A stretch of DNA of 51,805 nt, from the NCBI GenBank assembly GCA_905479985.1, contig CAJQOM010000032.1:1-51805 (forward strand). The letters are read 5' to 3'. Of this stretch, positions 5,198 through 49,289 are shown piece after piece (within the stretch, counting starts at the first letter, position 1; each line of letters starts with the position of its first letter). Below the pieces are notes generated by a model. It was not told the DNA's origin. It did no database searches and worked only from the letters and a program-made list of their open reading frames with translations. The translations under genes were made by a program, and so were the position numbers. Source of the DNA: an uncultured Gammaproteobacteria bacterium. GTDB taxonomy: Bacteria; Pseudomonadota; Gammaproteobacteria; Nitrosococcales; Methylophagaceae.

Positions 5198-5884
5198 ATG
5201 GAAAATTTATTCGAAGTTCAAGCTGAACTCCGTACTGACGCGGGGAAAGGTGCGAGCCGCCGTCTACGTCATGCCGGTAATGTACCAGCTATTGTTTATG
5301 GTGGTAGTGATGCGCCAATGTCGATCACGATTGACCACAACCGTTTTTTACGTCATTTGCAAGAAGAAGCGTTTTACGCCCATATCTTGACCGTTAATGT
5401 TGATGGTAAAAAACACAAAGTCGTACTAAAAGACTTACAACGTCATCCTACAAGCGATATGAGAATCATGCACGCTGATTTCTTCCGTATTGATGCAAAA
5501 CAAGCGATGACAATGACTGTGCAATTACACTTTATCGGTGAAGATGTTGCGCCTGGTGTTAAAGCCGGTGGTTTAGTATCTCACTTAATGAGTGATGTCG
5601 AAATCTCTTGTTTGCCGAAAGACTTACCTGAGTACATCGAGCTAGATGTGTCTGCATTAGAGTTGGATCACAGTATCCACTTGTCAGAGATTGCTTTACC
5701 TAAAGGTGTAACGTTAACTGCGTTATCACATGCTAAAGAAGAGCATCTTGAAGAAGGCGAGCATTCTTCATATGACCAAGCTGTTGTTAATATTCATACA
5801 CCTCGTGTTGTAGTAGATGTTGATGAAGAAACAGTTGTAGATGATGCTGAAGCTGCTGAAGGTGAAGAAGCGACTGAAGAGTAA
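5198..5884 (+). CDS. rplY: 50S ribosomal protein L25, long (Ctc) form
   Basis: L25 binds 5S rRNA in the large subunit; this is the two-domain long form (228 residues), with an N-terminal L25 domain (AELRTDAGKGASRRLRHAGNVPAIVYGG) and a C-terminal TL5-like beta domain. The C-terminus ends in a very acidic tail rich in Glu, Asp and Ala. ATG at 5198 is chosen because GGAG stands six bases upstream; an in-frame TTG four codons earlier lacks one. Gene order prs-rplY-pth-ychF is conserved across Gammaproteobacteria. Confidence 0.95.
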   Translation: MENLFEVQAELRTDAGKGASRRLRHAGNVPAIVYGGSDAPMSITIDHNRFLRHLQEEAFYAHILTVNVDGKKHKVVLKDLQRHPTSDMRIMHADFFRIDAKQAMTMTVQLHFIGEDVAPGVKAGGLVSHLMSDVEISCLPKDLPEYIELDVSALELDHSIHLSEIALPKGVTLTALSHAKEEHLEEGEHSSYDQAVVNIHTPRVVVDVDEETVVDDAEAAEGEEATEE

Positions 5885-5909
5885 TCTAGTCGTTTGAGGA
5901 CCGCGTTTT

Positions 5910-6488
5910 ATGGCTAACTGGTTAATTGCCGGATTGGGTAATCCGGGTCCTCAATATGAACACACCCGACATAATGTCGGGTTCTGGTGGCTGGATCAAC
6001 TGGCGCGTGAATTGTCGACAACGTTTAGTGTTGAAAACAAATTTCACGGTCAGTTGGCCCAGAGCCAATCTGCTCAAGATAAGCTATTTTTGCTTAAACC
6101 CCTGGTATTTATGAACCGTAGCGGCCAATCTGTTGCTGCTTTAGCCAATTTTTATAAAATTCCTACCAGCAATATTTTGGTCATTCACGATGAGTTGGAT
6201 TTACCAACGGGTACGGCTAAGCTTAAACGTGGCGGTGGTCATGGCGGCCATAATGGGTTACGAGATATTATTTCAGCCACTGGCAGCAAAGATTTTTTAC
6301 GCTGTCGTTTAGGCATCGATCACCCCGGTCATAGCAGCTTGGTCTCCAATTATGTGCTCAGTAAACCATCGCTTGCCGACCGACAAAATATTGAACTGGC
6401 TATCGATAACGCATTACGTGTATTGCCTGATGTTTTATCCGGTGATCTTGAAAAAGCCATGCACTGGCTACATTCACAAAACGCTTAA
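5910..6488 (+). CDS. pth: Peptidyl-tRNA hydrolase
   Basis: Releases peptides from prematurely dropped peptidyl-tRNA so that the tRNA can be recycled. The 192-residue product has the family landmarks in order: GLGNPGPQYEHTRHNVGF with the catalytic histidine, MNRSGQSV, HDELDLP with the catalytic aspartate, and GGHGGHNGLRDI with the substrate-binding asparagine. GAGGA stands nine bases before the ATG. It lies 25 bases after rplY and 51 before ychF, as expected for this conserved group. Confidence 0.97.
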   Translation: MANWLIAGLGNPGPQYEHTRHNVGFWWLDQLARELSTTFSVENKFHGQLAQSQSAQDKLFLLKPLVFMNRSGQSVAALANFYKIPTSNILVIHDELDLPTGTAKLKRGGGHGGHNGLRDIISATGSKDFLRCRLGIDHPGHSSLVSNYVLSKPSLADRQNIELAIDNALRVLPDVLSGDLEKAMHWLHSQNA

Positions 6489-36416: not shown

Positions 36417-37659
36417 TTGGGTAACGGGACGTTCGGACTTCAAGATGAAGCAACAGTAATAAAAAGCGGCGTAAGAAGCGTCTTTACACCCCATATACCT
36501 GTTGATGATGTGAGCCATTTTTTCGGTCGTGAAGATGAAGTATCAAGGCTTGTTAGTGTCATAAATTCACCAGGACAACATATCCTTCTTTATGGTGACA
36601 GGGGTGTTGGAAAAACATCACTGGCAAAGACGACTTGCAAAGTCATATTGCAAAAAATACAAAAGGGTGATTTTTTTGAAAAAAGATGTGATTCTGATGA
36701 TACTTTCTCTTCAATTTTTGAAGAACCTTTAGAAAAATGTGGAATAGACCTTTCCTTTAAAGAAGAAACAAAAACACTCAATCAAGCTGGTGATGCTGGT
36801 GTCAATACGGGCTTTCTAAAGGCAGGTGTCACATCAAAGCGTGAAACCACAGAAACAAAGCTCTCAAGCTATAAAACCGAACTCACCCTCCTGGGTTGCG
36901 GATCAACTAAAGTCTTTGTCAGGAATAATTCTTATTGATGAGGCTGATGCGATAACTAACAGTTCTGACAAGAAGAAAATTGCAGAGCTGATCAAACAAT
37001 TAAGTGATGCCAATTCTCCTTTCAAAATTGTTGTCGTTGGAGTAGCCAAAACAGGTGAAGAATTAACTGCTGGCCACCCATCTGTTGAGAGATGCCTAAA
37101 AGAGGTTTCTCTACAAAGAATGACTGATGATGACTTAAAAAAGATCATCTTAAATGGTATGAATAAGCTCTCACTCAGGCCTGATGATGTGGTAGTTAAT
37201 AAAATTGTAGACATTAGTGCCGGCTACCCTCACTTCACTCACCTTGTTTGCTTGAAGTGTGCCGAATCTGCAATCATAAATGGAAATAAACATATAACAA
37301 AGGAGACTTTAAAAAGTGCATTAAACGAAGCTGTCAAAGATTCTGAGGGAGCACTTCAAAGAATGCTGGAATCTACGCTTCGAGTCCTGAGCAAACCACA
37401 GGAATACAAATTTCTACTATTAACAGCATCATATTGCAATACACCAGAGTTTAGAAGCTCAGAGTTAAGGGACAAGTTGAAGGAAAAATTTAACCTCGAC
37501 GTTAATTCGACATCATTAAGTCGGCGACTAACAAAATTAACGGATGGAAGGAAGTTAACGATCTTGGAAAAGCCTGCCCGAGGTTGTTTCAAGTTTTCAG
37601 ACCCAAGAATGCCGAGCTTTTTAAAAATGGCGTTAAATAGTGATGACATAGAAATTTGA
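36417..37659 (+). pseudogene. AAA/STAND-type ATPase gene split by a frameshift
   Basis: Two frames together make one protein of about 413 residues. The first (TTG start at 36417, AGGAGA six bases upstream, stop near 36938) carries a GREDE box and Walker A (GDRGVGKTS). The second carries Walker B (GIILIDEAD), a sensor-like VVVGVAKTGEE, a lid with SAGYPHFTHLVC, and a C-terminal winged helix. The frame changes by one base near 36886-36892, at a CCC run, where LT joins SWVAD. One extra base explains it, so this may be a true mutation, an assembly error, or programmed shifting. It resembles Orc/Cdc6-like NTPases; no function can be assigned. AT-rich codon use differs from its neighbours, and it breaks the conserved order, so it is probably acquired. 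Confidence 0.75.
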
Positions 37660-45318: not shown

Positions 45319-45348
45319 AATTAAGACGAAGCGTAAATAACAGGCAAA

Positions 45349-45376
45349 AAAATAGGTCACCGAAGTGACCTATTTT
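45349..45376. terminator. Bidirectional terminator between the regulator and the GST-like operon
   Basis: AAAATAGGTCAC (45349-45360) and GTGACCTATTTT (45365-45376) pair perfectly around CGAA. The A/T ends provide T-runs on both strands, so it can serve both the double-receiver gene and the convergent GST-like operon. Confidence 0.9.
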
Positions 45377-45399
45377 CACATCATCTAATGATGACTCAT

Positions 45400-46182
45400 T
45401 TAGAACTCGCCACACTCAACATCAGCCAATGTTTTTGACTTGATGTCTTCAAGAGACGGCAATAAATCATAGGCAATAATGTCTTGGCCTGAATAGCTCT
45501 TGTGTGTTTTAATTTTTTCAAGCCACCCTTTGACATTTGGGCGTGAATTCAACATCTCTGCTTCACCAATCACTGACAATAAGTGTAGGTAAGCTGTGAA
45601 ATGGATATCAACGTAGCAAAAGTCACCCACGATGTATTCTGACGCAATTTTTGCATTCAAAGCATCTAGCGGTGTTACAAGTGCGGCACGGGCTGCTTCA
45701 ACAGCCGCATTGTCTGCTGCATAACCAGCATCACCCATTGGGCCAATAACAAGCTCTTGCATTAATGTTTCAACATGGGGCTGCACTTCGGTACGGCCGA
45801 TGTCAATCCAATAGTTTTGATCAGCTAATATGGCAGCATTACGTGGTGCTAAAAAAGTCCCTAAGCCTTTTCCTTCAACAAATACACATGTGCCGTGTTC
45901 ACCAATAACAACATAATTTGCTTCTTTCAGTGCCGGCAAAATGCCGAGTGGTGAAATTTTGCGATAGTCTTCACTGTCTTGTTGTTTAGCTGACATATCA
46001 ACAACAGCGGTTTCCGCTTCTATACCTTTTTCAGCTGCCGTTAACATCACTTTTAAGGTATCAGGATCACCAGGGAATCCTAGTAATTGCATCATGTACT
46101 GGTTTTTTTTCATCTCGCCGTCACCCTCAGTTTGGGATTCGAACGGTTTTGCAGCAGAGCCAAAATGAAATAAATCACTCAT
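45400..46182 (-). CDS. GST-fold protein, long form, copy 2
   Basis: A 260-residue protein of glutathione-transferase architecture, paired with a short form upstream. An N-terminal tail (MSDLFHFGSAAKP) precedes a thioredoxin-like half with LLGFPGD, AAEKGIE and the cis-proline loop ISPLGILPALKE, then a helical half with an N-capping box (FCYVDIHFTAY) and WLEKIKTHKSY. The usual ESxAI glutathione-binding stretch is absent (it reads GEHGTCVFVEG), so glutathione binding is uncertain. It ends in DVECGEF, identical to the last seven residues of copy 1. Ribosome-binding site GGAGG precedes the ATG. 24 bases separate it from the short form. Confidence 0.75.
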   Translation of the reverse strand: MSDLFHFGSAAKPFESQTEGDGEMKKNQYMMQLLGFPGDPDTLKVMLTAAEKGIEAETAVVDMSAKQQDSEDYRKISPLGILPALKEANYVVIGEHGTCVFVEGKGLGTFLAPRNAAILADQNYWIDIGRTEVQPHVETLMQELVIGPMGDAGYAADNAAVEAARAALVTPLDALNAKIASEYIVGDFCYVDIHFTAYLHLLSVIGEAEMLNSRPNVKGWLEKIKTHKSYSGQDIIAYDLLPSLEDIKSKTLADVECGEF

Positions 46183-46206
46183 TATTTTTTCCTCCAGATA
46201 AGCCGA

Positions 46207-46869
46207 TTAGGCTGCGTTTAATTGTTTTTGTTTAATGTCTTCAAGTGAAGGTAGGCTCGCGTAACTAGGGCGCTGCTTAACTTTGTCATACCATGCTTTG
46301 GTATTGGCACGAGAATCAATCATGTCTTGTTTGCCTGCAAGCACTAAGAAGTGTGCGACAGCTGTCCAATGGACATCTGCGTAGCTATATTCACCGACAA
46401 TAAGCTTTTTGCCTGTCAGGGCAGCATCAAACGCATTTAAGCCGACTTCGACTAAATCGGTGGCATCTGCATCCGCTGTGCTACCAAAGGCAGCAGCATG
46501 TAGTAAAGATTCAACGGGAGTGCTAATAGTTTCAGCGACTTGGGCCCAGTAATTTTGGTGGCCAAAGTGCTGGGCTTTTTTCGGGTTCAGGAACCCTTTG
46601 CCGCGTGTATCTAAGTAAGCTAAACCCGCTTCTGCTCCAATCGCAACTGCATCGCCTTCTTGTAAGTAAGGATGCTTTCCAAAGGGCGATAAGCCACGGT
46701 AGTCCGCTTGATCTTGCTCACCAGCTTGTGTATCGAGCAGTTCCGTTTCTAGCTTGACTTCCTTCTCTGCAGCCATAACTAGGCATTTAACCGTACTCAA
46801 GTCTCCTGGAAACCCTCGTAGTTTCATGCCTGCTTCTGCTTTCTTTTTCTTTTTAAAAAGCCCAAACAT
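46207..46869 (-). CDS. GST-fold protein, short form, copy 2
   Basis: A 220-residue partner of the long form. It starts with a lysine-rich tag (MFGLFKKKKKAEAG), then LRGFPGD, CLVMAAEKEVKLE, the cis-proline loop LSPFGKHPYLQEGD, and a helical half with YSYADVHWTAVAHFL (the N-cap Ser-x-x-Asp of GSTs) and a closing SYASLPSLEDIKQKQL. No catalytic Ser, Cys or Tyr stands at the normal N-terminal position in a recognisable motif. The basic N-terminus might contact membrane or nucleic acid. It is the first gene of the second operon copy, with GAGG upstream. Confidence 0.75.
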   Translation of the reverse strand: MFGLFKKKKKAEAGMKLRGFPGDLSTVKCLVMAAEKEVKLETELLDTQAGEQDQADYRGLSPFGKHPYLQEGDAVAIGAEAGLAYLDTRGKGFLNPKKAQHFGHQNYWAQVAETISTPVESLLHAAAFGSTADADATDLVEVGLNAFDAALTGKKLIVGEYSYADVHWTAVAHFLVLAGKQDMIDSRANTKAWYDKVKQRPSYASLPSLEDIKQKQLNAA

Positions 46870-47226
46870 TTTATTACCTCTTTTTCATTAATATAATCTT
46901 AAGCCAGCCACGTAAGCTATCGATGTTAACCAAGCTTTGTGGCTAGTCCTACCCTAAAATTTAGCCGTACTCAAAATGTGGACGTCATTGCTAAAATCTA
47001 AATCAACGACATAACAGCTAACAACAATAGCAAAAAGCGGTTATCTCTGACTAGTCTCAACGGCAAATTTATTGAGATAGCGAGCCGCCGTTCAGTACAT
47101 TGATCCATTATAATAATTGGGGTTAATTGAAAATGAGGTGCTGCAGTTTACACCGGCAAGCCGGCTGAATCTTTTATTCTTTTGCCCTAGGGCTGTGCTT
47201 ATTTGCGCATAATTTCGACACACGCA
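46870..47226. other. Gene-free spacer between the two GST-like operon copies
   Basis: No credible open frame. It should carry the promoter of copy 2; on the minus strand a perfect TATAAT lies at 47107-47112 but lacks a good -35 box, and would give a leader of about 230 bases. A second possible pair, TTGTTA with a weak TTAGAT, lies nearer the gene. I see no similarity by eye to the region upstream of copy 1. Confidence 0.4.
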
Positions 47227-47256
47227 TAAAAGTTAGGCCGCGTGATGCGGCCTAAC
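47227..47256 (-). terminator. Terminator after GST-like operon copy 1
   Basis: GTTAGGCCGC (47232-47241) and GCGGCCTAAC (47247-47256) form a perfect 10-bp stem with a five-base loop. On the minus strand it is followed by TTTTA, so it ends transcription from the long-form gene that stops at 47281 and keeps the two copies separate. Confidence 0.88.
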
Positions 47257-47280
47257 CAACGAATATCTTAAAGGTTGAAC

Positions 47281-48072
47281 TTAGAACTCACCACATTCAA
47301 CATCTTTCATTACTTTTGCTTTGATTTCATCCAATGTTGGTAAGAAATCGTAACTAATAATGTCTTGGCCTGAAAAGCTTTTATGCGCTTTGATACGTTC
47401 AAACCAAGCCTTGATATTACTATGTCTAGCAAATAAGACGCCTTCGCCCATCACGGTAAGTAAATGAATGTAGATGGTCCAGTGAATATCAGCATAGGAG
47501 TAAACGCCGACAACGAATTCATTCGATGTTAATTGCTCATCGAACGCATCCAATGGATCAGTAAGCGCTTCACGTGCTGTTTGAACGGCAATGTCATTGG
47601 TCACAAAGGCAGGATCCGCCATTTGACCACAGACTTTTTGCGTCATTAATGCTTCAATATGTGGCTGGACATCTTCTTTACCTACTTCCATCCAGTACAT
47701 TTCTGTTGCTAGTACTGCCGCATTACGTGGCGCCAGTCTATTACCTAAACCACGGCCTTCAATAAAGACACCGACACCAGGTTCACCAGCGATGGTGTAG
47801 TAAGCTTCTTTTAGTGCTGGCGTCAGGCCAAACGGTGAGATAGCGCGATAATCAGCACTGTCTTGCTCACCTTTTGTCATATCTAAGATACCGCTTTCTA
47901 CTTCAATGCCTTTTTCTGCTGCTGTTAACAGACATTTTAAGGTCTCTACATCGCCCGGGAAGCCAAGCAACTGCATAATATATTGTGTTTTCTTCATCTC
48001 GCCGTCACTACCGTAACGATCATCTGCATCTAATGCTTTGGCCGCAGAGCCATAATGAAATAAATCAGCCAT
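47281..48072 (-). CDS. GST-fold protein, long form, copy 1
   Basis: A 263-residue paralogue of the long form at 45400-46182, about half identical by eye. It has the same N-terminal tail (MADLFHYGSAAK), LLGFPGD, LLTAAEKGIE, cis-proline loop ISPFGLTPALKE, N-capping YSYADIHWTIY and C-terminal VECGEF. The ESxAI position reads GEPGVGVFIEG. Copy 1 has a cysteine after the first helix start (LKCLL) that copy 2 lacks (LKVML), so that residue is not essential. 24 bases separate it from its short partner, equal to the copy 2 gap. Confidence 0.75.
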   Translation of the reverse strand: MADLFHYGSAAKALDADDRYGSDGEMKKTQYIMQLLGFPGDVETLKCLLTAAEKGIEVESGILDMTKGEQDSADYRAISPFGLTPALKEAYYTIAGEPGVGVFIEGRGLGNRLAPRNAAVLATEMYWMEVGKEDVQPHIEALMTQKVCGQMADPAFVTNDIAVQTAREALTDPLDAFDEQLTSNEFVVGVYSYADIHWTIYIHLLTVMGEGVLFARHSNIKAWFERIKAHKSFSGQDIISYDFLPTLDEIKAKVMKDVECGEF

Positions 48073-48096
48073 TTTGTTTCTCCTCGTTAGTTATGA

Positions 48097-48768
48097 TCAG
48101 GCGACTGATCTAAGTTGTTTGTTTTTGACATCATCTAATGATGGTAAACCCGCGTAGCTACTCCGCGCTTTTACTCTGTCAAACCAAGCACTGAGATTAC
48201 TGCGCGATGCGATCATGTCTTGCTCTCCTGCGAGCGTTATCATGTGCGCTACGGCTGTCCAGTGAATATCTGCGAACGAATACACGCCAATGATATATTC
48301 TTTGTTATCAATAAATCCGTTCAATTCATCTAAGACGATTGCAATTTGTGCTCTTGCAGCATCTAAATCACCACCTTCAATGTCATAAAGGCTTGCTTTA
48401 ACCAACGTATCAACGGCAGGCTCACATAGCTTTCTCGACACTTGGGCCCAGTAATTTTGCTGACCAAATAATTGTGCTTTTGGTGGATTTAATAAGCCAC
48501 CTTGACCTCGCACATCGAGGAATGACAAGACTGCATTAACGCTCGTTGTTGAATAATCGCCTTCTTCCAGATAGGGATACTTGCCGAATGGTGATAACGC
48601 TCGATAGGCTTCTTGATCACAAGCACCACCTAAAACATCAAGTACTTCTACGTCGAGTTTTACTTTCTTTTCTGCTGCCATCAGCAAGCATTTACAGGTG
48701 TTAGCATCCCCCGGGAAACCTCTCATCGTCATGCGTAATTCTTTCTTTTTCTTTCTAAAAAATGGCAT
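48097..48768 (-). CDS. GST-fold protein, short form, copy 1
   Basis: A 223-residue paralogue of the short form at 46207-46869, with a basic start (MPFFRKKKKELR), MRGFPGD, KCLLMAAEKKVKLD, cis-proline loop LSPFGKYPYLEEGD, YSFADIHWTAVAH and a closing SYAGLPSLDDVKNKQL. It heads the first operon copy. The gap upstream to the exporter gene is 521 bases and holds a periodic repeat array. Paired long and short forms with constant spacing suggest a heterodimer; this is inference. Confidence 0.75.
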   Translation of the reverse strand: MPFFRKKKKELRMTMRGFPGDANTCKCLLMAAEKKVKLDVEVLDVLGGACDQEAYRALSPFGKYPYLEEGDYSTTSVNAVLSFLDVRGQGGLLNPPKAQLFGQQNYWAQVSRKLCEPAVDTLVKASLYDIEGGDLDAARAQIAIVLDELNGFIDNKEYIIGVYSFADIHWTAVAHMITLAGEQDMIASRSNLSAWFDRVKARSSYAGLPSLDDVKNKQLRSVA

Positions 48769-48970
48769 ATTTAACCCCTTCCTATCTCAAATTTATGTCT
48801 GAAATTATCAAATCGAGATGCAATCCTCCTTTCACACATCGATCGAACCCTTGTCTCGATTCGGCCTCACAAATCAGTCTTAATGACGGCTTGCCTGCTA
48901 TCGATATCTGTTAACTTCTTCAGATAGGGCGCAACGTTAGCCTTCAAGATTCAGAACGGCCTATACGTAT

Positions 48971-49092
48971 AAACACCACAATAACGAGGTGTTTTTAACC
49001 TTTGTAAATGTAATGTTATTTAACCCTTTGAATACAAGGCCTTTTTAACCACAGTATTTTTGTGGGTTATTACTAAAAATAAGCTTATTTTT
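48971..49092. repeat. 25-bp-periodic array of direct repeats and small palindromes
   Basis: On the plus strand T-rich tract plus AACC recurs with AACC at 48997, 49022 and 49047, exactly 25 bases apart (on the minus strand GGTTAAAWA). Within or next to each unit is a small inverted repeat: AAACACC/GGTGTTT centred near 48982, CCTTTG/CAAGG near 49032, AACCAC/GTGGGTT near 49057, and an 18-base palindrome with central AAGCTT at 49075-49092. Their centres also fall close to 25-base steps. It sits 200-320 bases upstream of the copy 1 GST-like operon and before the exporter gene. The remaining parts of 48769-49289 show no gene. Confidence 0.5.
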
Positions 49093-49289
49093 TATTTAAA
49101 AACAACGGTCTCATAGATATTTAATCTCGACTATTCCGCTGGGTTATTAGCTTAATAACTATTGATTCTGACCAATTTAATACCACTTTAGTCGTCTCAC
49201 TCTGTTAACCAACCTTGCTAAATGACACGGCTTCCCAAGCTCACTCACACGCTGAATTCCCATCTCGTAAGCGTGATAAGCTTATTTTT

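Follow-up and report, generated by a model that had tools for sequence, protein, structure and literature searches.

The window analysed here is a 51,805-nucleotide stretch of contig CAJQOM010000032.1 (GenBank assembly GCA_905479985.1) from an uncultured gammaproteobacterium of the Methylophagaceae, whose genome (G000) comprises 2.2 Mb in 46 contigs. On its minus strand lie two adjacent pairs of genes encoding proteins with the glutathione S-transferase (GST) fold, each a short form followed by a long form. We give about an even chance to the reading that these short/long pairs serve a membrane di-iron monooxygenase system of the AlkB/XylM class as its dedicated, probably heteromeric partners, and that this system acts on dimethyl sulfide (DMS) or a similar volatile. 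The linkage of the pair to the oxygenase system is strong, and a methylated sulfur volatile, DMS or one like it, is the likely substrate. To our knowledge, a GST-fold subunit is known in no AlkB/XylM-class oxygenase.

Linkage of the pair to a membrane monooxygenase

In seven of the 12 pair-bearing genomes the pair adjoins the gene for a membrane di-iron monooxygenase of the AlkB/XylM class, here called MO_B. This protein of about 391 residues is encoded by the next gene upstream of the first short gene (short1), on the same strand and 0.3–0.9 kb away, in five genomes of the window's genus (G002, G003, G010, G011 and G016); it stands directly upstream of short1 at loci L032, L033, L036 and L037, and in G002 as judged by coordinates. 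Two genomes of another family carry an MO_B at 72–73% identity about 1.4 kb from their pair.

MO_B is missing upstream of short1 in the window, so the oxygenase context was invisible to the initial annotation. The MO_B query returned from G000 only matches at 49–61% identity that resemble a paralogous oxygenase, MO_A. Where MO_B would be expected, the region upstream of short1 (48769..49148, minus strand) is homologous to the MO_B–short1 spacer of relatives: some 490 bp around the short1 start are 76–78% identical to this spacer at L032 and L033, and part of the same segment also matches the region upstream of MO_B in relatives. The region contains a single copy of a conserved 22-nucleotide element, AATAACCnAGCGGAAyAGTCGA (49127..49148, minus strand). 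At L032, L033 and L037 one copy of the element precedes MO_B and another precedes short1 (chance expectation 0.00), while at L036 it occurs ahead of MO_B only. Since the window keeps one copy of the element and a spacer matching both regions, loss of MO_B between two element copies, or a collapse of the assembly, would explain its layout.

G000 holds one complete MO_A-type gene, a second copy cut by a contig end and further pieces, namely two tails at contig starts and one gene start that meets a stop close to the end of its contig. Its contigs break inside these copies (at the starts of C21 and C12 and the ends of C34 and C23), and a multicopy oxygenase may fragment metagenome-assembled genomes (MAGs), hiding the operon in published genomes.

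Nine histidine columns, which we take to be the metal ligands, are conserved in 22/22 MO-family sequences and in four known relatives including XylM and AlkB; within an FA_desaturase domain these nine residues place the MO family with the AlkB/XylM membrane di-iron monooxygenases. The domain (PF00487) is found above its cut-off in MO_A, as the sole Pfam match, and in the MO_B of genome G084. Among solved structures, a sequence search with MO_A matched AlkB only (PDB entries 8sbb and 8f6t).

Organization and history of the pairs

The initial annotation had described a tandem, two-gene unit duplicated as a whole, and this description is borne out by exact coordinates. All four genes lie on the minus strand: short1 (48768-48097, 223 residues, N-terminus MPFFRKKKKE), long1 (48072-47281, 263 residues, N-terminus MADLFHYGSAAK, C-terminus VECGEF), short2 (46869-46207, 220 residues, N-terminus MFGLFKKKKK) and long2 (46182-45400, 260 residues). 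The gap between short and long gene is 24 nucleotides in both pairs (48073-48096 and 46183-46206), as had been noted, and the two units are 73–80% identical in DNA over their longest aligned blocks. The separate terminators described earlier correspond to terminator-like hairpins on the minus strand, one 3' of long1 and followed by a short T run (47231-47257, -20.2 kcal/mol, z -4.7) and one 3' of long2 and followed by a T-rich stretch and T run (45348-45377, -17.0 kcal/mol, z -5.8); neither is among the calls of a consensus terminator scan. The alignment also upholds the lysine-rich N-terminus of the short forms and the FH(Y/F)GSAAK and VECGEF tags of the long form, with the correction that FH(Y/F)GSAAK is located at the N-terminus of the long form and is not a tail.

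The four genes look like functioning genes under purifying selection, since the ratio of nonsynonymous to synonymous substitution rates (dN/dS) is low, at 0.02–0.09 in the ten of 12 comparisons of the GST-fold genes that were computable, with dS saturated in the other two and above 1 in several of the ten. Eight comparisons are with the close relatives L032 and L033 (dS above 1 in four with L032 and one with L033); short1 gives 0.047–0.048 against these two loci, and the range for long1 is 0.021–0.094.

Judging from the literature, the window's genus is probably GCA-002733105 of the Methylophagaceae in GTDB. Orthologous loci were found in six records, all MAGs titled Piscirickettsiaceae or Gammaproteobacteria. 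Pairing is conserved among relatives: wherever the upstream side of a long gene is covered, a short partner lies beside it, giving 14 complete pairs, one cut pair and two damaged ones across 12 genomes. In G425, home of the cut pair, the short gene extends past the end of the retrieved stretch, and G022, with a contig-edge fragment of the GST family only, falls outside the count. Two pairs are damaged. At L034 of G012 (contig C13) a hybrid open reading frame (ORF; 5698-6234) begins as MO_B and ends as short1, the mark of a deletion, or of an assembly join, between the two genes. In G018 (L041, 11931-13405) short2 and long2 are split ORFs and the pair appears decayed.

A fifth member of the family, GST5, is encoded on another contig of G000. 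In our tree, GST5 is separate from all other rows (17 rows, support 100/100) and the short forms cluster together (14 rows, support 98/94). The long forms fall into two groups, one of 12 rows from the window's genus and one joining G015 with G084 and G224, whose mutual order is unsettled. The G425 pair, cut at the locus end, was left out of the tree and of the alignment. Within the window's genus the split between short1 and short2 mirrors that between long1 and long2, and G015, G084, G224 and G425 have a single pair at the loci read. The short/long pair therefore seems, from these sequences, to have arisen first, to have stayed paired in two families and to have been duplicated later as a unit in the window's genus.

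Fold and active site

Pfam GST domains are found above their curated cut-offs in three of the four window proteins, with short1 slightly below, and the N- and C-terminal domains and fold are those of a Phi-like GST. Plant Phi-class enzymes (1aw9, 5f06 and 6ezy) are the best relatives among solved structures in both sequence and fold, at about 20% identity; compared with them, the window proteins have Asp in place of the catalytic Ser and an extra C-terminal segment of the LPSLDEIK type, which is common to the short and long proteins and GST5. A model of long1, of moderate confidence (predicted local distance difference test score, pLDDT, 71.6) and used for fold class only, matches Phi GSTs with a Foldseek probability of 1.00 but superposes poorly on them as a whole, with query TM scores of 0.31–0.40 and root-mean-square deviations of 12–15 among the 50 matches listed.

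One position, which we take to be the GST cis-proline, is unchanged in 23/23 short and long proteins (alignment A2), in keeping with the initial annotation, and no ESxAI-type γ-glutamyl-binding motif was found in the alignment in any of the four window proteins, as it had also stated. When aligned to solved Phi GSTs, the position that is presumably that of the catalytic Ser holds Asp in 4/4 window proteins, so that none has the thiol-activating Ser, Tyr or Cys. Over 29 short and long rows this position is Asp in 21, His in five, Cys in two and Asn in one; in GST5 it is Cys in 17/17. Because the catalytic Ser/Cys position is Asp, the window pair is probably not a standard glutathione transferase, and the earlier guess that thiol chemistry has been lost gains support from the comparison with GST5. 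Both rows with Cys are f45 long proteins, suggesting that Cys was lost later, within the window's genus. Membership of the canonical GSTs was rejected on the active-site residue, and the FzlA family (NCBIfam NF050814) was rejected, its best score being 36.4 bits against a cut-off of 300.

The MO_A module

GST5 belongs to a second arrangement, in which MO_A is followed by GST5 and then by a XylA-like reductase, with a truncated globin gene between MO_A and GST5 in several genomes. In the window's genus and in genus g3, its sister genus, a FadL/TodX porin, a second globin-like gene and a 396-residue protein follow downstream. The module is present in the g3 genomes G425 and G427, in family f45 and in family f143, and in several families it adjoins sox genes, mtoX (encoding methanethiol oxidase) or both. 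SoxC scores above its cut-off near the module, further sox-like genes were identified by reading the sequences, and G011, G012 and G018 have mtoX further along the same contig. In f143 the genes run MO-GST5-RED-P90-FadL-MtoX-SCO1/MauG (RED being the reductase), with the methanethiol oxidase at 693 bits (cut-off 650). In G425 a short/long pair is found immediately beyond the mto cluster, at a distance of about 8 kb from mtoX and on the opposite strand.

In families f40 and f165 (L119, L120 and L118) GST5 and the reductase remain together, with MO on another contig, hinting that GST5 may work with the reductase. The starts of short2 (MFGLFKKKKK) and short1 (MPFFRKKKKE) resemble that of the reductase (MFGFFKNKKQ), and this shared aromatic-basic start suggests that the short proteins and the reductase may dock at a shared place on the membrane oxygenase; in the f143 reductases it is not closely shared.

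One organizational parallel is XylM/XylA, the toluene/xylene monooxygenase of plasmid pWW0, where genes for a membrane hydroxylase, a 2Fe-2S reductase and an outer-membrane transport protein are likewise close together. XylM has the nine histidines of the MO family, at about 30% identity and across a very long branch, and none of the six genes in the pWW0 stretch that was read encodes a GST fold. AlkB alkane 1-monooxygenase of Rhodococcus opacus shares the conserved histidine columns, but the stretch from strain B4 carries rubredoxins, whereas the partners here are a XylA-like reductase and GST-fold proteins. A Polaromonas relative of MO has no annotated GST among 20 neighbouring genes. Among plasmids the long protein had no match, and the plasmid matches listed for GST5 are generic GSTs at about 30% identity.

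Several other genes recur around the module. The conserved protein of about 396 residues is encoded at L040 (857-2044), L043 (5171-6367) and L134 (2359-3555); the L040 copy, the one scanned, has no Pfam match at E 0.001. Genes for a CbbQ-type AAA ATPase and a VWA protein diverge from MO_A (L040, 8079-11002; L134, 11159-14067) and could possibly encode an activase or metal-insertion pair for a di-iron enzyme. Three families conserve, beside MO, genes for a histidine kinase, a response regulator and an acyl-CoA-dehydrogenase-like protein (L125, 1837-5555; L210, 3953-5825; L211, 4222-8529), a possible sensor of the volatile. Elsewhere in the window, two overlapping ORFs in different frames (36417-37659) resemble one frameshifted P-loop ATPase gene.

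Co-occurrence with methanethiol oxidase

Presence and absence were compared in G000 and 28 further genomes of its genus, in 24 genomes of g3 and in a class sample of 369 Gammaproteobacteria. We set the E-value limits at 1e-8 for MO and 1e-30 for mtoX in the genus and at 1e-70 and 1e-100, respectively, in the class sample. Within the genus, the GST family and MO occur together in nine genomes, the GST family alone in one (the contig-edge fragment of G022), MO alone in none and neither in 19. The corresponding figures for MO and mtoX are eight with both, one with MO only, two with mtoX only and 18 with neither, G002 being counted as positive for mtoX from two contig-edge pieces below the family cut-off. 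In g3 both genes are present in G425 and G427, the latter with two mtoX genes, and neither is found in the other 22 of the 24.

The class sample contains 13 MO-bearing and 33 mtoX-bearing genomes: mtoX is present in 11/13 genomes with MO and in 22/356 without it (Fisher p = 3.6e-11), or by genus in 7/8 and 18/263 (p = 1.8e-7). The two genomes with MO and no counted mtoX are G390, where the contig ends inside the porin gene, and G161, where a contig-edge mtoX-like ORF, left out of the Fisher tables, follows MO. GST5 was found at E 1e-30 or better in 11/369 genomes, all 11 with MO and ten with mtoX (p = 8.4e-11); eight further genomes have only weak matches that are probably generic GSTs. The oxygenase is thus both genetically linked to methanethiol oxidase and co-occurs with it. 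Because the Fisher tests ignore shared descent, these p-values are too small, and the recurrence of the linkage in several families is the better argument.

A possible route for dimethyl sulfide

No other biogenic source brings as much sulfur from the ocean into the atmosphere as DMS (PMC6548844). In Methylophaga thiooxydans, which has two mtoX genes, growth on DMS strongly raised the transcripts of methanethiol oxidases, of the fatty acid desaturase MDMS009_226 and of MDMS009_906, a porin of the FadL type; MDMS009_61, an NAD(P)H flavin reductase, is likewise described as highly upregulated. The study describes the first DMS enzyme of this organism as unidentified, with a monooxygenase as one option, and reports that homologues of dmoA are absent from the Methylophaga genomes studied (PMC6548844). 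G427, with the same number of mtoX genes, might at a guess be M. thiooxydans. DmoA is the only DMS-to-methanethiol monooxygenase named in the accessible part of a 2026 review (PMC13360808). No description of the present system as a DMS oxygenase was found among the titles and abstract openings listed for open-licence PMC articles, preprints not included.

In the mechanism we have in mind, the FadL/TodX porin would let in the hydrophobic volatile and the 2Fe-2S/FAD reductase would carry electrons from NADH to the di-iron site of the membrane oxygenase. A methylated sulfur volatile, most probably DMS, would be hydroxylated by the oxygenase at one of its methyl groups, and the hydroxylated DMS would break down into formaldehyde and methanethiol. 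The oxidation of the sulfur would be completed by methanethiol oxidase and then by the sox/sulfide genes. GST5, with its conserved Cys, would pair with MO_A and the reductase as the thiol-active version. The short/long pair, which stems from the same family as GST5, would probably act as a non-catalytic docking, scaffold or coupling subunit, a role put forward because the catalytic residue has been lost in the window's genus. The net reaction, DMS to methanethiol, would be that of DmoA, which is flavin-linked and of a different enzyme type from MO.

At somewhat less than even probability, we extend this to the proposal that the operon of MO, GST-fold and reductase genes is the missing first enzyme of DMS catabolism in marine methylotrophic Gammaproteobacteria, with the GST-fold proteins as dedicated subunits. 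This would comprise a membrane di-iron DMS monooxygenase together with a Cys-type GST and a heterodimer of pseudo-enzymes, of which duplication would have made two isoforms.

A number of observations weigh against a dedicated partnership in DMS oxidation. No MO_B was found in four of the 12 pair-bearing genomes (the window, G015, G018 and G425), and G012 holds only the fused fragment, so the pair has no strict need of MO_B. Conversely, G161 and G286 have MO without GST5, so not every MO requires a GST-fold partner. A tethered model of short1 with long1 is of low confidence (pLDDT 54.6, predicted template-modelling score 0.46) and speaks neither for nor against the obligate heterodimer suggested by the initial annotation; it was built from nine sequences, these being nine of the 11 complete pairs from the window and L032-L037, with L032 pair 1 and L036 pair 2 (short and long mutually out of frame) and the pairs of G015, G084, G224 and G425 left out. 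Co-occurrence is not function, and it has exceptions: G010 (81% complete) has MO and no mtoX match, G022 and G025 have mtoX and no MO match, and 22 mtoX-bearing genomes of the class sample have no MO match. As cited in PMC6548844, Boden et al. (2010) could detect no activity of a DMS monooxygenase in M. thiooxydans and put forward a methyltransferase instead. Finally, the correspondence of MDMS009_226, MDMS009_61 and MDMS009_906 to MO, the reductase and the porin is a candidate one, and another PF00487 gene of G427, 307 residues long, could be the reported desaturase instead.

Alternative explanations

The oxygenase might instead epoxidize an alkene or hydroxylate a hydrocarbon, with the GST-fold proteins conjugating or sequestering the reactive product as IsoI and IsoJ do with epoxyisoprene. 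A pair of GST genes beside a monooxygenase operon has this precedent in isoprene degraders (PMC10057887), a FadL/TodX porin and a XylM-like enzyme are present, and gas seeps and blooms are among the habitats of the host family (PMC10199937, PMC8371827). The isoprene oxygenase, though, is a multicomponent di-iron enzyme and conversion of epoxyisoprene has been shown for IsoI and IsoJ, whereas the oxygenase adjoining the pair in the window's relatives is of the PF00487 membrane type and not of the soluble isoABCDEF type, and the window pair is without a catalytic residue. In addition, MO tracks mtoX, its neighbours are sox and mtoX genes, and inspection by eye noticed no iso-type dehydrogenase or CoA transferase among them; we regard a hydrocarbon route as unlikely. 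Still less probable, in our judgement, is that the pairs are active glutathione enzymes detoxifying formaldehyde or other electrophiles, a guess of the initial annotation that found no direct support, the neighbourhood pointing instead to a monooxygenase system tied to methyl-sulfur oxidation. The fold class would suit such a function and the proposed pathway would yield formaldehyde. A study of methylotrophs in North Sea blooms (Methylophilaceae and Methylophagaceae) also reports 'glutathione S-transferases' among the expressed proteins (PMC8371827), which could not be tied to the window's genes. Against this stand Asp or His at the thiolate-stabilizing residue in the window's genus and the missing ESxAI motif.

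Stand-alone regulators or structural proteins resembling FzlA or SspA, with no tie to the oxygenase, would account for the weak similarity to FzlA, but they would leave unexplained why the GST family tracks the oxygenase within the genus, why synteny is conserved and why the pair and MO_B have an upstream element in common; we think this quite improbable. Lastly, the PF00487 gene could be an ordinary lipid desaturase induced by oxidative stress, in line with how the authors of the M. thiooxydans study interpreted MDMS009_226, for which they saw a possible part in lipid maintenance (PMC6548844); PF00487 is the only Pfam match of MO_A. We consider this very improbable: among solved structures the sequence search brought up AlkB alone, a XylA-like reductase and a porin adjoin MO_A, and in g3 MO is limited to the two mtoX-bearing genomes while other PF00487 genes occur in 3/3 genomes scanned.

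Significance

If the short/long pairs are partners of a membrane oxygenase, as we favour, degenerate GSTs would gain a plausible job. A co-occurring, syntenic oxygenase module, taken with the published expression hint, would turn the question of the first DMS enzyme in these methylotrophs into a specific gene-deletion test.

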